The notes under the pieces are model-generated. The model was given only the letters and a program-made list of their open reading frames with translations. It ran no database searches and was not told the DNA's origin. From positions 1 to 45,106 of the IMG/VR virus record IMGVR_UViG_3300028802_000027: a DNA stretch of 45,106 nt; one strand, 5' to 3'. The translations under genes and the position numbers were made by a program. Source of the DNA: a virus. This document shows, piece after piece, positions 3,857-40,676 of this stretch. The first letter of the stretch is position 1, and each line of letters opens with the position of its first letter.

Positions 3857-5967
3857 TGCCGATCCATCAGATCCAGGGGCCAGACGGCAGGATCCATGAG
3901 ATCGATGCGCCTGAAGGCGCGACCGAGCAGCAAGTCATGGATTACGTCAAAGAGCAGACCCAGCCAGGGCTGGTGCGATCGACGCTCGGTGGCATCGCCA
4001 AGGGGCTGACGTTCGGTTTCTCCGATGAGATCGGCGCCGGCCTGCACGCCGCAGGACAAGGCATCAGCAATCTGGTCCACCAGCCCACGCTGTCGGATCA
4101 GATCGTGCCACGCCCGACCATGGGCGAGACCTACGACAAGGAGCTGGCGCGCCAGCGCGCCCTCGAGGCAGCCGACGTCGAGGCGCACCCGATCGCCACC
4201 ACCGCCGGACAGATCGCAGGCGCCGTCGGTGGCGGCCTGCTGGCCGCTCCTGCCGCCGGCCCAGTGGCGGCCGCGACAGGCGTGGGGCGGCTCGCTGCCC
4301 CGGTCATCGGGGCGGCCAACCGGCTGCTGCCGGGCATGGTCACACGGACGGCCGGGCGGGTGCTGCCCATCGCTGGCGGCGGCGCTGCTGCGGGTGGTGT
4401 CGCCGGCTTCGGCGAGGGGGAAGGAGGCTTCGCAGAACGCGCCGGCAGTGCCGCAGAAGGCGCGGCAGTGGGCGCGGCAGTGGGCCCCGTGGTGGCTGGC
4501 GCAACGGCAGCTGGCTCCACGGCCGTTGGCCGCGTGGCGCACGCACTGAACCTACGCAACCCACAGACCGCCGCCGACCGGCAGATCGTCCGATCCCTCG
4601 ATCGCAGCGGCGTCTCCGTCGACGAGGCGGCGACGCGGCTCGAAGCTGCCGGCAACGATCCGACTGCCCTGGTTGATGTGGGCGGCCGCAATACGCTGAA
4701 CCTGGGTGCCACCGCGGCGAACACCCCAGGCACCGCCATGGAGGCGGCCGATCGGTTCGTGCAGGGCCGCCGGCTCGATCGCCCCGAGCGACTGACCGCA
4801 GCCGGCGACACCGCGTTCGGTGGGGGCAGCGGCACCGACGTGGCGGAGGCGACCGCCTCCAGGCAGGCACAGCGCAGCACAGAGGCCGCGCCGCTCTACG
4901 AACGGGCCTTCGACCAGCCAGCCGGCATGACCGAGCAGCTGGCCGGGCTGTTGGAGGATCCGATCGCGCGCCAGGGCATGCGCCACGGCCTCGAGATCCA
5001 GCGGATCGAAAACGCCACACGCCGCGCCAGGGGCGAGGAGGTGCAGCGCACCGCCGATCCGGCAATCCACTACGACGACGAGGGCGTGCCCCGGATCGTC
5101 GGCCAGCCCACCATGCGGACCATCGACGCGGCGAAACGCGGCATGGACAGCATGATTGAGTCCGCGCGTGACCCAGTCACCGGGCGGGTGCAGTGGACAG
5201 AACGACTGCGCGCGATCGACGGCATGCGCCGCCGTCTGGTCGAGCTGGCCGACCAGGGCAATCCCGACTACGCCGCCGCGCGTGCTGCCTGGGCTGGCCC
5301 CTCCGCTCAGATGGAGGCGACCCAAGCAGGCCGCGGCGCGTTCCGAGCCGACCGGGACGTTGTCGCTGCCCGCATGACTGGTGGCGCACCCGATGTGCAG
5401 GAGGCCTATCGCCTGGGCGCCGGCCGGGCGTTCGGCGACCTCGTCAGCGATCCCGGCACCGCCGTCGGCAAGGGGCGCAAGCTGCTCGAGGACAGCCAGA
5501 TGCAGGCGCGGTTGAACAGCCTGCTGCCGCCTGACCGGCTCGAGGCGCTGAACACCGCGCTACGGCGCGAGAACGAGTATGCGAACGTGGAGCGGACGGT
5601 CAGCCCGCGCGCCGGCTCACAGACCGCGCGCCTGACAGCCGGCGGCGAGGACATGGCCTCTGACGTGGCGGGCCCGATCGCGGGCGCTGTGCGGCAGGCG
5701 GCTGGGGGTCGCTGGCTGGGTGCGGCGGGATCCCTGGCCGGCGATGTGCTGGTCCGCCGCCTGGGCCAGGGGATCAACCCCGCAACGGCAGACGCCCTGG
5801 CGAACCGGCTTTTCCAGACCGATCCAGCAGGGCGCCAGAGAGTGACCGAAGCGTTGCGCAACAGGTTGCTGCGCGATGCGGAAGTGAGGGCCCGAGCCCA
5901 GGCTGTGCTGCGTCCGACGATCCGCGGGCTCGGGCAAGTAGCGGGAGGCTACGCGGGCTCGCCTTAA
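3856..5967 (+). CDS. Large DNA ejection (internal virion) protein
   Basis: The 703-residue protein starts in a TGATG overlap. Its first 35 residues (GPDGRIHEIDAPEGATEQQV) are a short module common at the N termini of phage ejection proteins. Next come long Ala/Gly-rich, probably membrane-active segments (about residues 110-240), and then a helical, Arg/Glu-rich C-terminal half. No enzymatic motif was seen. By position and composition it is the third ejected core protein, likely forming part of the channel across the host envelope. Its TAA stop overlaps the TAA stop of the small leftward gene 5964-6122. Confidence 0.75.
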   Translation: MPIHQIQGPDGRIHEIDAPEGATEQQVMDYVKEQTQPGLVRSTLGGIAKGLTFGFSDEIGAGLHAAGQGISNLVHQPTLSDQIVPRPTMGETYDKELARQRALEAADVEAHPIATTAGQIAGAVGGGLLAAPAAGPVAAATGVGRLAAPVIGAANRLLPGMVTRTAGRVLPIAGGGAAAGGVAGFGEGEGGFAERAGSAAEGAAVGAAVGPVVAGATAAGSTAVGRVAHALNLRNPQTAADRQIVRSLDRSGVSVDEAATRLEAAGNDPTALVDVGGRNTLNLGATAANTPGTAMEAADRFVQGRRLDRPERLTAAGDTAFGGGSGTDVAEATASRQAQRSTEAAPLYERAFDQPAGMTEQLAGLLEDPIARQGMRHGLEIQRIENATRRARGEEVQRTADPAIHYDDEGVPRIVGQPTMRTIDAAKRGMDSMIESARDPVTGRVQWTERLRAIDGMRRRLVELADQGNPDYAAARAAWAGPSAQMEATQAGRGAFRADRDVVAARMTGGAPDVQEAYRLGAGRAFGDLVSDPGTAVGKGRKLLEDSQMQARLNSLLPPDRLEALNTALRRENEYANVERTVSPRAGSQTARLTAGGEDMASDVAGPIAGAVRQAAGGRWLGAAGSLAGDVLVRRLGQGINPATADALANRLFQTDPAGRQRVTEALRNRLLRDAEVRARAQAVLRPTIRGLGQVAGGYAGSP

Positions 5968-10943: not shown

Positions 10944-11375
10944 GTGGCGTCGGAAAGATTCAAACTATCCCCACCCGAGCCGGCGGAGGTCGACCTCCAG
11001 GCGGCGGTGGCTGACGCTCTGAAAATCATGGTCCGGCCGCCGGCCATGTGGACCCCACTGCCGATCGGCCACGTCCAGCTGACCGCGCCCCAGGCGGCGC
11101 GACTGGCACGCATCGGCGTGCAGCGCGGCTGGCCAGACATCCTCGTCTTCCATGTCGGCTGCTACGGCATCGAGCTGAAACGGCGGGGCGGCAAGCTGTC
11201 CAAGACCCGGACTGTTCGCACCCCGAGGGGCAGCCTTCGCGTGCTGGAAGGCCAGGAAGACGTGTTCCCTCGCCTGCTCGCCGCGGGGCTCGTGGAGATC
11301 GCCACATGCGACAGCCTGCACAGCGTCCTGGCCGCCCTCGAGACCTGGGGGATACCCCTGAGGCGCTGGCGCTGA
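10944..11375 (+). CDS. VRR-NUC domain nuclease
   Basis: The protein is 143 residues from GTG. The VRR-NUC (PD-(D/E)XK-like) core is visible: an N-terminal helix with EVDLQAAVADAL, then RGWPDILVF holding the catalytic Asp, YGIELKRRGGKLS holding Glu-x-Lys, and a C-terminal CDSLHSVLAAL helix. Stand-alone phage VRR-NUC proteins are Holliday-junction or structure-specific nucleases. It is divergent from the ERF operon with only 35 bp between them, which must hold both promoters; GTAAAAT near 10931-10937 could be a -10. Confidence 0.8.
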   Translation: MASERFKLSPPEPAEVDLQAAVADALKIMVRPPAMWTPLPIGHVQLTAPQAARLARIGVQRGWPDILVFHVGCYGIELKRRGGKLSKTRTVRTPRGSLRVLEGQEDVFPRLLAAGLVEIATCDSLHSVLAALETWGIPLRRWR

Positions 11376-11527: not shown

Positions 11528-11718
11528 GCGTGGCCCTGGTGGCCAGCGTCGGGGGCCTGGAGCTGGTCCCCCGCTCGCCCGCAATCGTCCGGGTGCGCGC
11601 CCCGCCCAGGCCAGTGACCAGGGCAGAGGCGGTCGAGCAGCGACACCTCGCCCTGTCGGCGATCGACAGGGCAAAGCGATCATCCAACTCGGCACCCTCT
11701 TCTTTATCGACTGATTGA
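11494..11718 (+). CDS. Small membrane-anchored hypothetical protein
   Basis: The 74-residue product begins MLVRIVCACLIGVALVASVGG, an N-terminal membrane segment or signal anchor. A proline- and arginine-rich stretch (VRVRAPPRPVTRAEAVEQ) and a Ser-rich tail follow. No recognisable ribosome site precedes it and it overlaps the zinc-ribbon frame. It could be an inner-membrane spanin-like or regulatory peptide. The array on the opposite strand begins 11 nt past its stop. Confidence 0.45.
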   Translation: MLVRIVCACLIGVALVASVGGLELVPRSPAIVRVRAPPRPVTRAEAVEQRHLALSAIDRAKRSSNSAPSSLSTD

Positions 11719-11728
11719 CTCATGTAGT

Positions 11729-12104
11729 CCGGCTCTCTCCGATAGTGCGGTTCGATCGCGATCCACGGTTCACTCGGACCACGCGTCTCGATCGCTTGTT
11801 TCGGTGCTCTTTCCTGCCTCGTCTCGATCCTGATACGCGGTTCCCTCATCCCATTCGTCTCGATCGCATCTTTCGGTGCAACTCGCTTGCTACGTCTCGA
11901 TCCTGATGCACGGCGCCCTACAGTTTGACGTCTCGATCGAGTATCTCGGCGCGCTCACTTCATTCGACTCGCCTACTTCGGTGCGCTCTTTGGGTCGGCT
12001 CATCCGTCGCGGCGCCCTCCTTTTATTCGGCCCGATCAGTGGCAGCGGTGCGCTCTTCGGTTTCGTCTCGCTCCTACCACTCGGCGCCCTCTAGCCGTCT
12101 GGCT
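11729..12104 (-). repeat. GAG-CCG box array, minus strand (A box type GATCGAGACG)
   Basis: Reading leftward from the stop of the HhH gene, about 11 B boxes (GAGnGnnCCG: for example GAGGGCGCCG, GAGCGCACCG, GAGTGAACCG) alternate with about 10 A boxes. Here the A boxes are mostly GATCGAGACG, with GAGCCG, GAGTCG and GATCGGGCCG also present. I count 20 internal spacers, of which 19 are exactly 8 nt. Their sequences (for example TGCATCAG, AAACAAGC, AATGGGAT) share no consensus. The array fills the whole gap between convergent genes and would be the 3' untranslated end of the leftward operon. The minus strand is the one on which it matches the arrays at 19143-23640. Confidence 0.9.
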
Positions 12105-13139
12105 TCAGGCGGCGCGCTTGCCGCGCTTCTTGGGCGGCTCCACTGGCTTGGCACCCTCGCCTTTGGCGGCTGGCCGATCACTTGACGCGGAACTCTCGCG
12201 ATTATCGGCTGGGCTGGTGGGCCGGAACTCGTGTGACGTGGTCTCGTGTGCATCGGTGCTCTGCGCGGAAACGGCTGCGGCCAGGGCCGCCTCGAGGCCG
12301 GGGAACATTTCGCAATTCGGCGGCGCGACAAAGTGGGTGTGATTCGGCAGCGACAAAACAAACGGCTTCGGCGGCGGCTTGCGGAATTCGTGCCAATACC
12401 AAACGCAATGCAGATGCGACAGGAACAGCTTCGTCGCATAACGCTCGGCCCGCAGATGGATGCGCGCAGGCGGCAACTTCCCCTGCTCATAATGCTTGCG
12501 CGCCTCAGTGTCGGCACCAAATTTCTTGGCCTCCAGGCTCGCCTTCGCCTGATCGCTGAACCGCAGCGCGTCGTTGCGCTCGTTCTCGAGTTCCTTCCTG
12601 ACCTTGTAGACCTTGCCGTAGACGTCGTTTTCGTTGCCGCTGACCTTGACGAAACTCTCGCCGATCAGCCAGCACAGGCGTTTGAGGCTACCGTTCCACG
12701 GACGCTTTTCGCCCTTGTTCCATTTGTCCGTCGGATCCAAACCAGCGAACCGCCAGATGTGCCCCACCGTAGGCGCCTGTTTGATGTCGATGTTCGCCAA
12801 CAAACCGGCCGTTATCACCGGGCCAATTCCAACGATGGACTGACACCACACACCGACCGGGTTCGCCCCCGCATAGCCTGCGAGCGCGCGCCGTATTTGG
12901 TTTTCCAACGTCTCGCGCTGCCCCGACAGCCAGCTGACGATGTCATGCGGTTCGGATCCCTGCGCCAGCGTCCGTTCCTGATGCGCGGCGCGGATCCGGT
13001 CTCTCTGTGATGCATAGTAGGCATCCACGAGGTAACGCGCTTCACGATCCGACAAGGTGATCGCTGCGTTTCGGAGATCGCGCGTGAGGCGCTGGATGCT
13101 CTCGAGGTATTCACTCACTGCGGGGGTGTTGCTGCTCAT
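12105..13139 (-). CDS. IS110-transposase-like HhH (Transposase_20) protein without a nuclease domain
   Basis: The 344-residue protein holds a region at about residues 85-160 that matches the C-terminal Transposase_20 domain of IS110/IS116 transposases: CQSIVGIGPVITAGLLANID, WRFAGLDP, then KRPWNGSLKRLCWLIGESF. The catalytic RuvC-like DEDD domain of those transposases is absent; instead there is an N-terminal helical part and a basic, disordered C terminus (ends PKKRGKRAA). Such stand-alone proteins occur in phages; their function is unknown, though the HhH fold binds DNA. The start ATG at 13139 follows GAGAGCACC, identical to an array B box. It is the last gene of the leftward operon and is followed at once by an array. 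Confidence 0.65.
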   Translation of the reverse strand: MSSNTPAVSEYLESIQRLTRDLRNAAITLSDREARYLVDAYYASQRDRIRAAHQERTLAQGSEPHDIVSWLSGQRETLENQIRRALAGYAGANPVGVWCQSIVGIGPVITAGLLANIDIKQAPTVGHIWRFAGLDPTDKWNKGEKRPWNGSLKRLCWLIGESFVKVSGNENDVYGKVYKVRKELENERNDALRFSDQAKASLEAKKFGADTEARKHYEQGKLPPARIHLRAERYATKLFLSHLHCVWYWHEFRKPPPKPFVLSLPNHTHFVAPPNCEMFPGLEAALAAAVSAQSTDAHETTSHEFRPTSPADNRESSASSDRPAAKGEGAKPVEPPKKRGKRAA

Positions 13140-13311
13140 GGTGCTCTCTGTTGAGGTTGGGATTGTAGGCGGCGTAAAATCCACTCAGGAAGCACATGCT
13201 GTCGCGCGTGTCGCGCTCGTCTGCCTCCCGGTAGCGGCGGAACCCCTGGCCAGTGACGTAACCGGCCAGGAAGAAAATCGTCCCGACAAAATAGGTGACA
13301 ACCCACCACAT
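13111..13311 (-). CDS. Small membrane protein
   Basis: The 66-residue product starts MWWVVTYFVGTIFFLAGYVTG, one N-terminal transmembrane helix, followed by a charged cytoplasmic-type tail (RRYREADERDTRDS). It starts in a TGATG overlap and itself overlaps the start of the HhH gene by 29 nt. No family was recognised. A holin-like or membrane-signalling role cannot be excluded, but early-operon position argues against lysis. Confidence 0.6.
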   Translation of the reverse strand: MWWVVTYFVGTIFFLAGYVTGQGFRRYREADERDTRDSMCFLSGFYAAYNPNLNREHHEQQHPRSE

Positions 13312-18902: not shown

Positions 18903-19145
18903 ATGCCGGATGAAGACAATTTTGGGCCCTGCAGATCGTGCCTCCACTGGTCTCCACAGCCCGGCCAAGACGGCCTCGTGGGCGAGACGCGGGGCGTTTG
19001 CAGGACGTGGCGCGCGTGGCGCTGGTGCGGCCAGCTGGCGCGTCACCCGTGGCCCTACACGATGGACTTCATGGGCTGTCCCGAGTGGAACCGACCTGGG
19101 CCCGAGCCCGACCCACAGCCCGGCGAGCGGGCGAGGAGGAGGTAG
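18903..19145 (+). CDS. Small cysteine-motif (zinc-binding) protein, paralogue of 19531-19725
   Basis: The 80-residue product begins MPDEDNFGPCRSCLHWSP and has GVCRTWRAWRW and a later FMGCPEW. The CxxCxxW ... G-x-CR ... C layout is the same as in the neighbour at 19531, so the two are probably paralogous four-cysteine metal-binding proteins of a kind common in phages. Its TAG stop (19143-19145) is part of the first A box of the following array. The 132 nt upstream (18771-18902) hold no gene and no clear promoter. Confidence 0.65.
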   Translation: MPDEDNFGPCRSCLHWSPQPGQDGLVGETRGVCRTWRAWRWCGQLARHPWPYTMDFMGCPEWNRPGPEPDPQPGERARRR

Positions 19146-19530
19146 CCGCCGAGTGGGAGAGAACCGACTTTTTGGAGCGACCAGCCGTCTCTCGAGAGAG
19201 CACCGAACCGATAGATCGTTCCGCGAGCGACCAGCCGCAATTAGGGAGAGCACCTGAATCGGCGAGCGACCAGCCGTTTGGGCGGAGGGAACCGTGCTTA
19301 CAGAGCAACCAGCCGGCGCAGGCGAGGGCCCCGAAGAGCACGAGACCGAGCGACCAGTCGAGACACCGGAGAGCGCCGCGTTCCAAGAGCGACCAGACGT
19401 CAAAGCAGAGTGCACCGTGATACAGGATCGTTCGTGTCCAAGGATGGTATCGTGTCCGTAAAGGAATATTATCGGACGTAACCAGCCGCGAGCCTTGAGG
19501 GCACCGATAAAGAGGAGCAGCCGGTAGACG
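19143..19530 (+). repeat. GAG-CCG box array 2a (A box type GAGCGACCAGCCG)
   Basis: Alternating boxes fill the whole gap between two genes. A boxes here are a longer subtype, GAGCGACCAGCCG (five or six copies with few changes); B boxes include GAGAGAACCG, GAGAGCACCG, GAGGGAACCG, GAGGGCCCCG and GAGTGCACCG. Spacers read, in order, CCGAGTGG, ACTTTTTG, TCTCTCGA, AACCGATA, CAATTAGG, TTTGGGCG and so on, nearly all 8 nt. Around 19435-19480 the pattern decays. The first A box contains the stop codon of the upstream gene, and the last spacer contains the ATG of the next. Confidence 0.9.
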
Positions 19531-19725: not shown

Positions 19726-20135
19726 GCGCCGGGCCAGACGTGGCGAAATCCGTGACCAAACGAGTGGCGAAACCCGTGACGAAAGGGGGAGGGGCAAACC
19801 TCCGCCTACGTTTGTCCCCCCGGCCGTGGGGCCTGCTCGAGGCCTTCGTGGCCAGCCGCGTGGGCGAGGGCAGCAGCGGCGGCTATCAATCGAAGCGGCG
19901 CAAGTGGCGGGCTCAATTGAACGCCCGGCTGTCGGGCCTGGACACCTGGGAGCGGCGCGCGGTGCCGCGTGTGATGCCTGGGCTGTGCTACCTCGAGCTG
20001 GACCAGGGGGATGTCGACTGGATCCGTCGGCAGATCCGGAACTGCGGTGGGGGTGGCTGGGAGCGTCAGGTGTGCGACATCTTCGACAGCTCGGCTGAGG
20101 TGTTCTGCAATATCGAGCGGGTGAAGAAGCGATAG
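19722..20135 (+). CDS. Hypothetical basic protein, 137 residues
   Basis: The start is ATG 19722, overlapping the preceding TGA; an earlier in-frame ATG would overlap more. The N terminus has an imperfect repeat (VTKRVAKPVTKGG) and is strongly basic. The rest contains PWGLLEAFVASRVGEGSSGG, RAQLNARLSGLDTWERRAVP and a C-terminal ERVKKR. It might bind nucleic acid. No family was recognised. Its TAG stop lies inside the first A box (TAGCCG) of the next array. Confidence 0.55.
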   Translation: MSAGPDVAKSVTKRVAKPVTKGGGANLRLRLSPRPWGLLEAFVASRVGEGSSGGYQSKRRKWRAQLNARLSGLDTWERRAVPRVMPGLCYLELDQGDVDWIRRQIRNCGGGGWERQVCDIFDSSAEVFCNIERVKKR

Positions 20136-21564
20136 CCGACCCTGACGAGTGCGCCGGTTCGTGGGAGCGTCAGCCGAGACACGAGAGGGCGCCGATTTCG
20201 TTGAGCATCCGAGCCGGCAGGCCCGAGGGGTCCGATGTAGATGAGCAGCCGACGCAGGAGAGGGGGCCGAGATGTGATGAGCGCAGCCTTGGTCGAGGAG
20301 GGCACCGCCGTGACCGAGCAGCCGGCTACCCTGAGGGGACCGAAGGCAGCGATCGAACAGCCGGCCTGAGTGAGGGCGCCGATCCATGTGAGCCGACGAG
20401 GTTGAGTGGACCGCATTGCCGGAGTTAGCCGATCCTCTCGAGGGGTCCGATGCAGTTGAGCAGCCACTCCCGCAGAGGGGGCCGTGGCGGTAGAGCGAGT
20501 AGCCGAAGCTTCGGAGGGGTCCGGAATAGCCGAGCAGCCAGCGAGCGCGAGCTGAGCGAGTCGAGCGAACTGAGTGGACCGAAGGGAGCGATCGAGCCGT
20601 TACGCCGGAGGGCGCCGGTATGTATGAGCGATCGAACCGAGCTAGATGCGAGTGCCGAACTCCGGGAGTGTTCGCTGTCCGTTCCGCTGGCGAATCCGAG
20701 TCCGAGTCAAGGCCGACTTTCGGACTCAGCCGAACCGGCCGCGGAGGGGACCGGGGGGCCAGAGCAGCCGGCTGTTTTGAGGGGTCCGTGACTAAGGAGC
20801 CGGTAGGCGAAAATGGGGAGGGTTCCGGTAGAACCGATCGAGCCAGCCTCGACGAGGGGGCCGTGAGCAATGAGCAGTCGTGTTGGTCGAGGGTGCCGCG
20901 ATCAAAGAACAGCCGACGGAATGGAGTGGACCGACATGGTTGAGCCGTTAGACGGAAGGGGACCGATCTAAGGGAGCAGCCGAACGCTGCGAGGGATCCG
21001 CAAGGGCTGAGCAGGCGAATCTCAAGAGGGGGCCGAGAGTGCGGATCGGAGCCGGCTAAGAGGAGTGGACCGCGACTGCGGAGCTGCCGCAGAGGTCTGA
21101 GCCGATAGACGAAAGGGGACCGTGACCAAGGAGCCGACGCGGGAGAGGGGGCCGACTTGCATGAGCCGAGAACCAAGAGGGGACCGGACTGTGGGAGCCG
21201 CGAGGACGTGAGGGGTCCGAGAGGAACGAGCAGGCGCAGGACCGGAGAGGACCGACACCCGCGATCGAGCCGAATAGCGCGAGGGGTCCGTAGCAGTCGA
21301 GGGCGAGAGGGTTCCGCAACGGAGAACGAGCCGTGGTGATTGAGGGGACCGTGGGAGCCGAGCCGTGTCAGAAGAGGGGTCCGGAAGCACAGAGGCAGGC
21401 GTCGATCGCGAGTGAACCGCATCCCTTGATCGAGCCGATTCAACGGAGGGGTCCGGGTTACGTGAGCAGCCGGCCGCAGCGAGGGGTCCGCAAGAGCAGA
21501 GCAGCCGAGCGTCCGAAGGGGGCCGTCGGAGGCGAGCAGCCGGTGAGGTAGAGGGGTCCGAAAG
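20133..21564 (+). repeat. GAG-CCG box array 2b, the largest (about 38 B boxes)
   Basis: This 1.43-kb stretch has no gene on the + strand. It is built from A boxes (GAGCAGCCG, GAGCCG, GATCGAGCCG, GAGCAGGCG) alternating with B boxes (GAGGGGTCCG most often; also GAGGGGACCG, GAGGGGGCCG, GAGGGCGCCG, GAGTGGACCG, GAGGGATCCG, GAGGGTTCCG). Box-to-box spacers are 8 nt almost throughout, so the A-to-A period is about 35 nt, not a multiple of three. A decayed part lies at about 20640-20735. Some units look duplicated: spacers TGACTAAG and TGACCAAG, and ATAGACGA and TTAGACGG, occur in similar contexts. The array ends at the start codon of the gene at 21565. Confidence 0.92.
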
Positions 21565-21819
21565 ATGGGAGCGCCTATGCGAGCCTCTCAGAGCCAGCTG
21601 GCGGCCCTCATAGCCTGGGCGGATGATTTCTACCCGGACAGGCTCCAGGGGCCTCCTGGGTGGCTCCCAGACGTCTGGCTGGCCGACGATGACGTGGTCG
21701 AGCTGTTCGGGTGGGTGACGCACCGGAGGCAGCACTGTGCGCTGGTGGATAAGCTGGAGTTCCGCGGCGAGGTCGCGAAGCAGGCGATGCGGGCCTGCTG
21801 GCGCCGGATCGGGTGGTGA
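21565..21819 (+). CDS. Hypothetical protein, 84 residues
   Basis: The product has SQSQLAALIAWADDFYPDRL, GWLPDVWLADDDVVELFGW, and a helical Arg-rich end (AMRACWRRIGW). The start ATG at 21565 lies in the spacer after the B box GAGGGGTCCG, whose GAGGGG is a plausible ribosome site 8 nt away; ATG 21577 is an alternative. The stop overlaps the next start as TGATG. No family was recognised. Confidence 0.6.
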   Translation: MGAPMRASQSQLAALIAWADDFYPDRLQGPPGWLPDVWLADDDVVELFGWVTHRRQHCALVDKLEFRGEVAKQAMRACWRRIGW

Positions 21820-22016: not shown

Positions 22017-22345
22017 TCGATAAGCGCGAGGGGTCCGAAACGGGAGAGTCGAGAGAAGTGAGGGGTCCGCGATAGCAGAGCAGGCGAACTACGTGAGGGC
22101 GCCGTATCGGCTGATCAGGCGAAGGATGAGAGGGGACCGAAACGACAGAACGACCCGTTGAATGAGAGGGGACCGAGCGGGGTGAGGCGAAGCACGGGAG
22201 GGTTCCGTATCAGACGATCGACCCGTAGACCATGAGGGTGCCGTTGATCGCGAGGCCGACCCGTTGCGCCTGAGGGAGCCGAAATGGAAGAGGGGTCCGA
22301 AACCAGCGAGCAGGCGAGCAGAGGCGAGTGCACCGTCATATCGGA
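22014..22345 (+). repeat. GAG-CCG box array 2c
   Basis: About ten B boxes (GAGGGGTCCG, GAGGGCGCCG, GAGGGGACCG, GAGGGTTCCG, GAGGGTGCCG, GAGGGAGCCG, GAGTGCACCG) alternate with A boxes of mixed type (GAGTCG, GAGCAGGCG, GATCAGGCG, GATCGACCCG, GAGGCG). Spacers are 8 nt. One place has two B boxes in a row (GAGGGAGCCG, AAATGGAA, GAGGGGTCCG), showing that strict alternation is not required. It begins at the stop codon of the upstream gene. Confidence 0.9.
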
Positions 22346-22650: not shown

Positions 22651-23009
22651 TCTGGAGCTACAGCCAGGGGACGGGGGAGCTGACGGCGCCGGACGGGGTG
22701 ATGCTGGCGTGCGGGTATTCGGGCTGTGGGGTGTGCACGAACCAGCCGCAGATGCAGTGGGCGGAGGACCTGGGGCCGATCCCGCGGGGGAGCTATGCGA
22801 TTGGCGTGCCCAGGGACGACGAGACGATGGGCCCGTATTGCCTACCGCTGGAGCCCGATCCAGAAAATGAGATGCACGGGCGCTTCGGGTTCTACATGCA
22901 CGGGGACAACGAGACGAGCACGGCGAGCACGGGGTGCATCATCATGCCGAGGGCGATCCGGGAGGAGGTGGCGCGGAGCACGTGCACGACGCTGCGGGTG
23001 GTGGTGTAG
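22605..23009 (+). CDS. Tlde1/DUF2778-type L,D-transpeptidase-fold enzyme, endolysin candidate
   Basis: The 134-residue protein matches the Tlde1/DUF2778 family: WSYSQGTGELTAPDG, CGYSGCG, GPIPRGSYAIG, and the active-site segment GFYMHGDNETSTASTGCIIM with the His and the catalytic Cys of the L,D-transpeptidase fold. Such enzymes cut or exchange peptidoglycan stem peptides in the periplasm. As a single-domain protein it is the best endolysin candidate here, although no signal sequence is seen. Its first about 15 residues (MVEAAEVEEGTGGTE) are encoded by array boxes. GAGGGGG upstream, a B box, can serve as ribosome site. Confidence 0.72.
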   Translation: MVEAAEVEEGTGGTEVWSYSQGTGELTAPDGVMLACGYSGCGVCTNQPQMQWAEDLGPIPRGSYAIGVPRDDETMGPYCLPLEPDPENEMHGRFGFYMHGDNETSTASTGCIIMPRAIREEVARSTCTTLRVVV

Positions 23010-23240
23010 GCTCTGGCTCGACGGATCTCTCCCATCTTTCGGCTCTGGCGGCGGGGTTCTCTCTCACAGATCGGCTCGGTCTCGGACATCGCGGCGCTCT
23101 CCCGAAACACGGATTGCCGCTTGCATGAGCTCGCGGCCGTCGGCTCTCTCGCGCAGAATGGCTCGCCCTATTCGGCTCCCTCCGAAGCTTCGGCTCGAGG
23201 TCGACGGTCCCCTCCCACTTCTCGGCTGTTCCACAGCTCG
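23007..23240 (-). repeat. GAG-CCG box array 3a, minus strand
   Basis: Reading leftward, B boxes (GAGGGGACCG, GAGGGAGCCG, GAGAGAGCCG, GAGAGCGCCG, GAGAGAACC, GAGAGATCCG) alternate with A boxes (mostly GAGCCG), with 8-nt spacers such as TCGACCTC, AAGCTTCG, AATAGGGC, ACGGCCGC, CGATGTCC and ATCTGTGA. The first boxes lie within the 3' coding end of the gene 23168-23509 and the array stops at the end of the convergent gene 22605-23009. Orientation has flipped relative to 19143-22650, following the strand of the neighbouring gene. Confidence 0.88.
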
Positions 23241-23509
23241 AACTGGCCCTGGCGGGCGGCCTGAGCCTGTATGACGCGGATTGCGGCCTCGAACATGGGC
23301 TGCCAGGACGGCGGGTAGAGGGCGAAGCAGTGGCTGCCGGCGCCGGCTTTCTTGGTGCGCAGGTCTTTGACGGGCGGCCGCTTCATGATTCTGACCCAGG
23401 CGGCTGCCATTTGTTTGCCGACCTCCCAGGCCTGTTCGTTGGACAGCTCGACCTGGAGGTCGCGTGAGACGCTGTGGATGCTGATCCATTCCCGGTTCGA
23501 TGTGCTCAT
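23168..23509 (-). CDS. Hypothetical protein whose C terminus is encoded by array boxes
   Basis: This 113-residue leftward gene begins MSTSNREWISIHSVSRDLQV and contains VGKQMAAAWVRIMKRPPVKD and SHCFALYPPSWQPMFEAAIR. The well-formed helices suggest a real protein, of unknown family. From about residue 92 (NSREVGGDRRPRAEASEGAE) the coding sequence is array: A, B, A and B boxes at 8-nt spacing, with the TAG stop in the following spacer. The original stop was probably lost or overrun by the array. It is flanked on both sides by arrays on its own strand. Confidence 0.6.
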   Translation of the reverse strand: MSTSNREWISIHSVSRDLQVELSNEQAWEVGKQMAAAWVRIMKRPPVKDLRTKKAGAGSHCFALYPPSWQPMFEAAIRVIQAQAARQGQFELWNSREVGGDRRPRAEASEGAE

Positions 23510-23640
23510 CCTGTCTCACGCTCCGGCGCTTCGGTGCTCTCCCCGGCAGGCGGCTTCCCAGAGGCGGCTCTTGCATTCCGGATCTCTCGCATAAGGCGGC
23601 TCGCGGGCTTAGGCACCCTCCAACCCCACGGCTGGGCCGT
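23510..23640 (-). repeat. GAG-CCG box array 3b, minus strand
   Basis: Three B boxes (GAGGGTGCC, GAGAGATCCG, GAGAGCACCG) and A boxes (CAGCCG, GAGCCG, AAGCCG) lead up to the start of the gene 23168-23509, with 8-nt spacers such as TGGGGTTG, CCTTATGC, GAATGCAA and AAGCGCCG. It forms the 5' untranslated region of that gene. From 23641 to 23769 there are no boxes; ACGACTCAGTCGT near 23747 is a 13-nt dyad that may mark the control region of the late genes. Confidence 0.85.
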
Positions 23641-23643
23641 CAA

Positions 23644-39585: not shown

Positions 39586-40676
39586 TGGCAAACTTCCAAA
39601 TTTCGGTTCCGTTCCACGGCATCAGTCCCAACTGGATCCACCGCAGAGACTTCGTCAGCTCGAACGGCGACTCTCTGTCCCTGCGCATGACATTGAAGGA
39701 GTCTGACGACCCCGACGCGGCGGCCGCCAACCTGACCGGGCTCACCGTCCCTGGCTTCCGGCTCACCGTGTGGCAGGACAGCTCGGGCGGTGCGTGGGAC
39801 TACGGCGGCGTGCAGAGCGGCCCCGGCACCACCCTGGCGCAGCTCGAGGGCATCGTCTCCAGCCTCTATCCCGGCACGGTCGACTTCGTCCTCGGGCTGG
39901 GCGGCATGGCCTCCTGGCCGAACCGGTGCGGGTTCGCCATCGACATCGTGCACAACGACAGCCTGCAGGACCGGCTCGCCGAGGGGATCCTGAGGCTGCG
40001 TGGCATCCCTGGCGCAATGGCCACAGGCATCGGTGCCCAGGCGCCACAGATCGTCATGGGCCCACCCGGCCCACCCGGACCGGCTGGCCCAGAGGGCGAC
40101 GTCGGCCCGGCCGGCGTGACAGGCTCCACGGGGCCCGCAGGCGCCACCGGATCCACAGGCGACCCCGGCCCAGTCGGCCCCACCGGCACAACCGGCCCAA
40201 CCGGCGCAACCGGTTCCACCGGTCCTGCAGGCCCCACCGGCAGCACGGGTGCCCCAGGCGCTACCGGTGCCACCGGTCCCACGGGCCCCACCGGCCCGGC
40301 CGGCACTTACACCGCGGGCGCCGGCATCGGCATCTCGGGCGGCACGATCTCCGCCGACGGGCAAATCTCGATCACCCCGACCACGGTCGGCACGATCACC
40401 CCGACCAACGCGACGCAGAGCTGTGTGGTCAACGTCGGCTCCAGCAACTGCGTGCTGACGGTGCAGCCGGGCTACGTGGGCCAGCACTTGCGGCTCGAGA
40501 TCAAACAGCCTGCCACGCCGAGGACTGTCTCCTTCGACAGCACGGTCATCTACGGCACCGACATCACGAGCTACACCGCCAGCGCGGTCGCCAACGCCCG
40601 CGACATGGTCATGCTGTTCTGCCCCGCCGGCACGACCTGGACGGTCGCGGCGATCGTCCACGGGTTCGCAGTGTGA
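39585..40676 (+). CDS. Collagen-like tail fibre protein
   Basis: The 363-residue protein has three parts: an N-terminal beta domain ([30 protein letters not shown]), a collagen-like Gly-X-Y block at about residues 158-243 ([20 protein letters not shown] and many GPT/GAT/GST triplets), and a C-terminal beta domain ([19 protein letters not shown]). Collagen blocks in phage fibres form rigid trimeric stems. The start at 39585 overlaps the preceding TAA; upstream in-frame codons are shadows of the preceding gene. Confidence 0.8.

Follow-up and report, generated by a model that had tools for sequence, protein, structure and literature searches.

An immediate question about the viral contig IMGVR_UViG_3300028802_000027 relates to a minus-strand array of short boxes beside an IS110-like gene; namely, whether the boxes encode guide RNAs for the product of that gene, serve it as DNA-binding sites, or merely adjoin it. 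We refer to the whole stretch analysed, a 45,106-base IMG/VR viral contig in its entirety, as the window; on predicted gene content (terminase, portal, head decoration and lysis) it belongs to a tailed phage. To judge from sequence and modelled structure, the locus is a dual-repeat TIGR-Tas system of the TasA type, in the sense of Faure et al. 2025 (PMC12045711), a reading to which we assign a probability of about 0.93. The predicted features at issue are the following.

11677..12104, minus strand: tas-proximal TIGR array, about 24 boxes with 8-nt spacers, called by the count of boxes eight letters apart (N8 statistic)
12105..13139, minus strand: tas gene, TasA type, about 344 amino acids from an ATG at 13139, called by homology and fold
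12131..12261, minus strand: array-like boxes, spaced by 8 nt, lying within the 3′ end of the tas open reading frame (ORF), parser score 27.3 against a shuffle maximum of 7.5
11651..11671, minus strand: hairpin CCCTGTCGATCGCCGACAGGG after the truncated last edge repeat, fold z −4.63 for 11630–11690

The proximal array and the protein beside it

Read on the minus strand from 12099 to 11730, the array contains 21 boxes and 20 spacers; 19 spacers are 8 nt, and the only other one, ‘acccaaa’, flanked by GAGCCG and GAGCGCACCG, is 7 nt. These counts agree with an earlier, sequence-only reading of this DNA, which had reported about 20 boxes, with 19 of 20 spacers exactly 8 nt, at the 3′ end of a leftward operon; tas and the array indeed close the leftward (minus-strand) gene set at its 3′ end, with the array directly after tas. 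The motif [AC]CG-N8-GA occurs 19 times in 11677–12110 and other gap lengths (3–14) occur 0–10 times, whereas 2000 shuffles of the same segment gave a mean of 2.5 and a maximum of 8. Boxes and spacers were delimited with a stricter version of a parser whose loose version had called arrays everywhere; checked against shuffles, the stricter version scored array blocks at 11.5–27 and shuffled window sequence at 7.5 at best. The loop repeats of the proximal array are GAGNGNNCCG, and its commonest edge box, GATCGAGACG, occurs five times beside the variants GAGCGAGACG, GATCGGGCCG, GATCGAACCG, GAGCCG and GAGTCG. The array had been credited with a box subtype of its own, which is true of this commonest box and not of the other edge boxes, which vary.

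The limits first given for the array, 11729–12104, proved too narrow. The array is present there and runs further at both ends, to a truncated edge box (GATCG) at about 11677, followed by the strong hairpin, which is a possible terminator, and into the tas ORF at 12131–12261. The boxes within the ORF encode the C-terminal tail of Tas, which has a predicted local distance difference test score (pLDDT) below 50 past residue 295 and is missing or different in most relatives. It is as if the tas reading frame ran on into array units, yielding a low-confidence protein tail; one related locus (L003) has a comparable, shorter case of array boxes within the end of the tas ORF.

Published TIGR arrays have two alternating repeats of 8–12 nt and spacers of 9 nt (8–12 in exceptions), and end in a 3′-truncated edge repeat followed by a rho-independent terminator (PMC12045711). 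They are processed to 36-nt tigRNAs, the two spacers of which pair with opposite DNA strands, and the tigRNA-binding proteins TasR and TasH are Nop-domain relatives of IS110 (PMC12045711).

The ORF beside the window array, open from a GTG at 13184, matches PHROG_4285 (E = 2.5e-46), and Pfam gives Transposase_20 alone, as expected from the earlier description of a Transposase_20 protein without the nuclease. A phmmer search of the PDB returned only two credible relatives, TasR (9mty, E = 1.9e-9) and TasH (21kl and others, E = 5.6e-8). Structure comparison used an AlphaFold model built from a six-sequence alignment. In Foldseek, ranks 1–9 were all TasH or TasR (E = 8e-6 to 7e-5), followed by the IS110 recombinases ISCro4 and IS621; VIA-align gave Z scores of 18.1 for TasH (214 residues), 16.6 for TasR and 12.7 for IS621/ISCro4, with the next unrelated chain at 9.1. 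The previous suggestion of an IS110-like RNA partner was thus right in kind, the protein being homologous to tigRNA-binding TasR and TasH. Pfam found no HNH or RuvC nuclease domain in the window Tas and, in a scan to E 0.1, no DEDD (RuvC-like) catalytic domain; residues 7–92 at its N terminus are modelled as helices, and the HNH-bearing N terminus of TasH from Salicola phage CGphi29 has no counterpart in it. The TasR and TasH subtypes were rejected because no N-terminal RuvC or HNH nuclease is present, and the product of 12105–13139 is, on homology and modelled fold, a predicted nuclease-less Tas of the TasA type.

Known systems share parts of this organization. SpTIGR of CGphi29, the TasH system (PMC12045711), likewise has 8-nt spacers, an array beside tas, a phage genome and a homologous Nop/IS110-like domain. 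Its repeats, AAGCGAGCCA and AAGACAACCA, are nearly the same as GAGCGAGCCA and GAGAGNACCA in window-related phages, and its array closes with a truncated edge running into a terminator. It differs in that TasH has an N-terminal HNH domain, which the window Tas lacks, and in a box C (the CCA or CCG end of a repeat) that is CCA there and mostly CCG in the window, where the edge repeats are 6–14 nt. TIGR-TasA systems (FpTIGR of Flavonifractor plautii and others) also combine a solo nuclease-less Nop-type Tas with a dual-repeat array, although FpTIGR spacers are 9 nt and those of the window 8 nt; the likeness to FpTasA is one of architecture, not of sequence comparison. The Transposase_20 domain and fold are common to the window Tas and IS110 recombinases (IS621, ISCro4). 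The differences from IS110 are the DEDD domain, the transposon ends, of which none was seen in the window and none sought, and the many small guides of the window array against one bridge RNA in IS110. Box C/D small nucleolar ribonucleoproteins (Nop5/Nop56) were not retrieved in fold searches with the window Tas, and Nop5 was not among the structure matches listed by Foldseek and VIA-align, which says nothing either way; the window system is without fibrillarin (partners were not sought), and its expected target would be DNA. CRISPR arrays resemble the window arrays in their repeat–spacer organization and rapid spacer turnover, but no cas genes were seen in the window, which has two kinds of repeat of 6–14 nt and 8-nt spacers in pairs.

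Association of tas with arrays in related phages

A search of IMG/VR with the exact window-repeat pattern gave 0 matches; repeat sequences differ from one phage to the next, and related loci were therefore collected from IMG/VR by searching with the protein. Arrays with 8-nt spacers lie beside tas on the same strand in all nine first relatives. In a wider set they are on the tas strand in 80 of 81 loci and on the opposite strand in none, and automatic detection found an array in 123 of 133 unique loci of an extended set. Five of the ten exceptions (L179, L187, L194, L195 and L196) have arrays with diverged repeats that are visible by eye, and three (L040, L126 and L129) are contigs cut at tas, L040 having a 43-box array at its other end. 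A weak array call on the opposite strand was made in one locus (L150). The sequence-only reading had proposed a link between its helix-hairpin-helix (HhH) protein and the arrays, with co-occurrence across phages as the check; that check was strongly positive at each sample size, and the link is borne out by the homology to TasR and TasH together with the same-strand arrays.

One alternative is that the gene is a decayed IS110 transposase next to an unrelated repeat, as the transposase label from Pfam and PHROG might suggest. The family is, however, long and conserved, with many invariant residues; its sequence and fold are nearer to TasR and TasH than to IS110; and it is array-linked in at least 128 of the 133 loci, the co-occurrence in 80 of 81 loci having already contradicted this account, which we find scarcely credible.

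The related arrays also resemble published ones in their units. Of about 3700 units in relatives, measured from a box to the next box but one, 2940 have a length of 36 nt, that of the published tigRNA, and one relative (L006) has a clear truncated edge repeat and terminator at its array end. Whether box C finishes in A or G covaries between both repeat types (r = 0.966, 97 loci; an approximate value, given the parser's preference for CC[AG]), which is what reading of both by a single symmetric dimer would predict. This covariation bears on the idea that the arrays soak up some RNA-binding protein of the host, as RNA decoys or sponges, and that the homology to Tas is a coincidence. Such a role would fit the many short, G-rich boxes in non-coding DNA that is transcribed; it would not fit a near-universal, strand-specific association with tas, and ends that covary from phage to phage are expected of one cognate dimer rather than of a conserved host protein, so that we regard decoys as extremely unlikely.

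Alternatively, the HhH protein could bind the arrays directly as double-stranded DNA sites, for instance as iterons or as a partition/centromere array. Regular 17–18-bp steps, ParB-like genes in some TasA loci and a primase-polymerase gene close to the distal arrays of the window would be in keeping with this. We consider it very unlikely, given that the arrays are strand-specific (all those detected in the 81 related loci are on the tas strand), that the protein groups with RNA-guided Tas/IS110 proteins, and that DNA sites give no reason for the co-inheritance of loop-linked spacer pairs described below. By analogy with published TIGR-Tas systems, the expected partner of Tas would be processed array RNA, not array DNA.

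Some related loci deserve mention in their own right. L117 and L118 are 99% identical over the 3.3 kb to the tas end, after which one has a 37-box array and the other unrelated, array-free sequence. Strict peptide patterns, run against bacterial and archaeal one-genome-per-species assemblies, gave a single match, L113 (JAKAJO010000004.1), a 10.4-kb, low-coverage contig of an Acidobacteria metagenome-assembled genome that carries tas and an array; the Tas family therefore looks essentially viral. L113 is also a possible hint at the host phylum. Microcystis phage Mvi-JY20 (L012; PP438412.1) encodes a distant Tas relative, annotated only as a hypothetical protein, followed at about 4600–5000 by an array of ATGCGAGCCA and ACGAAACCCA repeats with spacers of mostly 8 nt; this array closes with a truncated repeat and then a terminator-like hairpin with a T run. 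Placement of the tas start codon within a repeat box was dropped as a feature, as it was seen in only 10 of 60 loci.

Layout and inheritance of the arrays

Box parsing identified further predicted sub-arrays in the window, distal to tas.

19125..19523, plus strand: distal TIGR sub-array P1, with edge repeats GAGCGACCAGCCG
20131..21581, plus strand: distal TIGR sub-array P2, the largest (about 77 boxes)
22028..22316, plus strand: distal TIGR sub-array P3
22593..22638, plus strand: short distal TIGR sub-array P4, 3 boxes
23002..23231, minus strand: distal TIGR sub-array M2a
23551..23641, minus strand: distal TIGR sub-array M2b

P2 has edge repeats GAGCAGCCG, GAGCCG and GATCGAGCCG, and loops GAGGGGTCCG and similar. 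The two minus-strand sub-arrays, with a small minus-strand ORF (23168–23509) between them, are additional to the arrays recognized earlier. In all, about 172 boxes, or roughly 85 two-spacer units, are spread over both strands of the window in five or more sub-arrays, whereas CGphi29 has one array by tas; the majority of the boxes are opposite in strand to tas and 6–10 kb away from it. As published, TIGR arrays most often have 5–15 units and lie upstream and/or downstream of tas (PMC12045711). When 33 longer contigs were parsed in full, only the window had a large array opposite in strand to tas (98 of its boxes in that parse); in four others (G018, G019, G021 and G041) the sub-arrays are dispersed and lie on a single strand. 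TIGR-Tas itself is already published, and what this locus adds is an extreme in array number and layout, which makes the window phage an extreme case for testing whether arrays are used in trans.

Two repeats alternate in the window arrays: the loop repeat, GAGNGNNCCG, is nearly always 10 nt, and the edge repeat is 6–14 nt long and not the same in each sub-array; unit lengths are 32, 35, 36 and 39 nt. In proximal and distal arrays alike, most boxes end in CCG (132 of 172), which would fit one Tas reading all of them. Edge boxes are more alike within than between sub-arrays, a small effect that none of 2000 permutations reached and that upholds the local subtypes claimed before. Growth of arrays by the copying of their own units, suggested on that basis, also finds support among close relatives, which share blocks of several spacers and show duplications within arrays and deletion of whole units.

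Across related phages, adjacent spacers are kept together over a loop repeat in 233 of 414 cases (56%) and over an edge repeat in 123 of 486 (25%). Loop exceeds edge co-inheritance in nine of nine groups of related phages (sign test, approximately 0.004); as the cells within a group are non-independent, the group count is the safer statistic. Because parser breaks at edge repeats could bias the comparison, co-inheritance was recounted on the raw sequence, which gave the same result, and stricter counts agree. The loop-linked co-inheritance indicates that the dual-spacer guide (tigRNA) is the inherited unit, and provides independent, indirect evolutionary support for a tandem-spacer guide. This pattern would follow both from selection on guides and from preferred crossover in edge repeats, between which the data do not discriminate.

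Compared with the genes that flank them, arrays turn over much more rapidly, and part of this turnover is the loss of whole units. Close relatives share spacers partly and in blocks (3 of 23 for L060/L062 at 1.8% flank divergence; 7 of 23 for L088/L096 at 2.0%). In the tightest pairs, 0 of about 4,530 repeat positions and 13 of about 3,340 spacer positions are substituted, and 9 of these 13 substitutions, which are clustered, come from the single pair L106/L107. These two loci have identical tas genes and differ in four spacers. In a third locus (L131), one unit is present in both versions; this difference between L106 and L107 is therefore a whole-unit deletion bounded by edge repeats, and an in-situ spacer replacement was withdrawn as its explanation. 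Guide sharing between unrelated arrays was also discarded: 124 spacers occur in more than one cluster, compared with 95–122 in column shuffles, which is essentially chance. Faure et al. leave open the origin and expansion of arrays, the targets of guides and the role of nuclease-less TasA (PMC12045711). The set of related loci bears on array origin and expansion and on guide targets; its comparative data on what is inherited as a unit and on how fast arrays turn over appear, within the literature consulted, to be new.

Predicted mechanism, targets and gene neighbourhood

If the window system acts as published TIGR-Tas systems do, its arrays would be transcribed with their operons, and the transcripts, bound by Tas, would be processed within edge repeats to single units, each comprising an edge half, spacer A, a loop repeat, spacer B and an edge half (32–39 nt here). 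Each unit, as a guide RNA, would be held by a nuclease-less Tas dimer, and box D and box C would be the end sequences that edge and loop repeats have in common (GA...CC[G/A]). Spacers A and B would then pair with opposite strands of a 16-bp DNA target, which would be opened and bent, and left uncut. Membership of TIGR-Tas would by analogy imply RNA-guided DNA binding without cutting, and Tas is very probably steered by its guides to chosen DNA sites. The likely outcome would be that the target is blocked or repressed, and the targets would most likely be non-self, either rival mobile elements or the host.

We tested four guide-pair geometries; the one that we derive from the 8-nt 3′ overhang and the C-5 rule described for TIGR-Tas (PMC12045711) is spacer A, a 0–2-nt gap and the reverse complement of spacer B. 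The searches covered the phage's own genome and its kin, as 16-nt guides have no power against the whole virus collection. The 102 pairs of the window have no perfect match in the window in any of the four geometries, and their counts at 1–2 mismatches equal those of re-paired controls; 2828 pairs from 85 records gave 0 perfect self-matches, with cross-matches at control level; and 1619 loop pairs matched 2.3 Mb of kin (136 records) no more often than shuffled pairs did. A slight excess for rcA+B at gap 0 (8, loop pairs) was not taken as signal, as this is a geometry other than the derived one, near-identical contigs were recounted and 24 cells were examined. As far as exact matches go, the guides are thus aimed neither at the phage nor at its kin.

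These results bear on the possibility that TIGR-TasA guides are aimed at the genome of the phage itself, as a regulator or an aid to recombination or replication. Binding to self would be harmless without a nuclease, most of the arrays are in the rightward operon past the primase gene, and regulation and integrase aid are among the options raised by Faure et al. (PMC12045711). With no self-match among either the window pairs or those of the 85 records, and with a spacer turnover in near-identical phages too quick to suit fixed self-sites, we consider this unlikely. Blocking of non-self DNA is the role that we hold most likely, speculatively, because self-targets are absent and turnover is fast. 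At somewhat less than even odds, the arrays together would be a fast-turning-over repertoire of dual-spacer guides, spread by edge-repeat recombination of units or blocks and used in trans from both strands by one nuclease-less Tas that blocks non-self DNA.

Several points count against the assignment of the locus to TIGR-Tas. The locus is known from its sequence and a predicted structure alone, and the AlphaFold model of Tas is of middling quality (pLDDT 72). Edge repeats of 6–7 and 13–14 nt fall outside the published range of 8–12 nt, so some units may escape normal processing, and the hairpin that closes the proximal array has no U-tract, whereas published arrays end in a rho-independent terminator. 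Two of the 133 loci (L117 and L120) have tas and no array in reach. Finally, no target was found in the phage's own genome or its kin, so that the targeting role here is a predicted one.

The proximal array heads toward a convergent plus-strand ORF (10944–11375), past which are ERF and YqaJ recombination genes on the minus strand. This ORF resembles, by eye, a VRR_NUC/PDDEXK-type nuclease (PHROG_824, E = 6.5e-5), unconfirmed by Pfam VRR_NUC; in a related locus (L004, G003), a small ORF right after tas is VRR_NUC/PDDEXK-like by eye, and is also unconfirmed by Pfam VRR_NUC. A VRR_NUC nuclease as a partner of the system was rejected, as it was found in CGphi29 only and distant from tas. The primase gene (primase-polymerase) lies in the rightward operon, and most arrays follow it. 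An Rfam search returned no family and a tRNA search returned none. Far from these genes, at 40122–40297, the window contains a tandem repeat of period 9/27/54 (GGCCCCACCGGCAC...) within a plus-strand ORF, where it probably encodes the collagen-like (Gly-X-Y) part of a tail or fibre protein.
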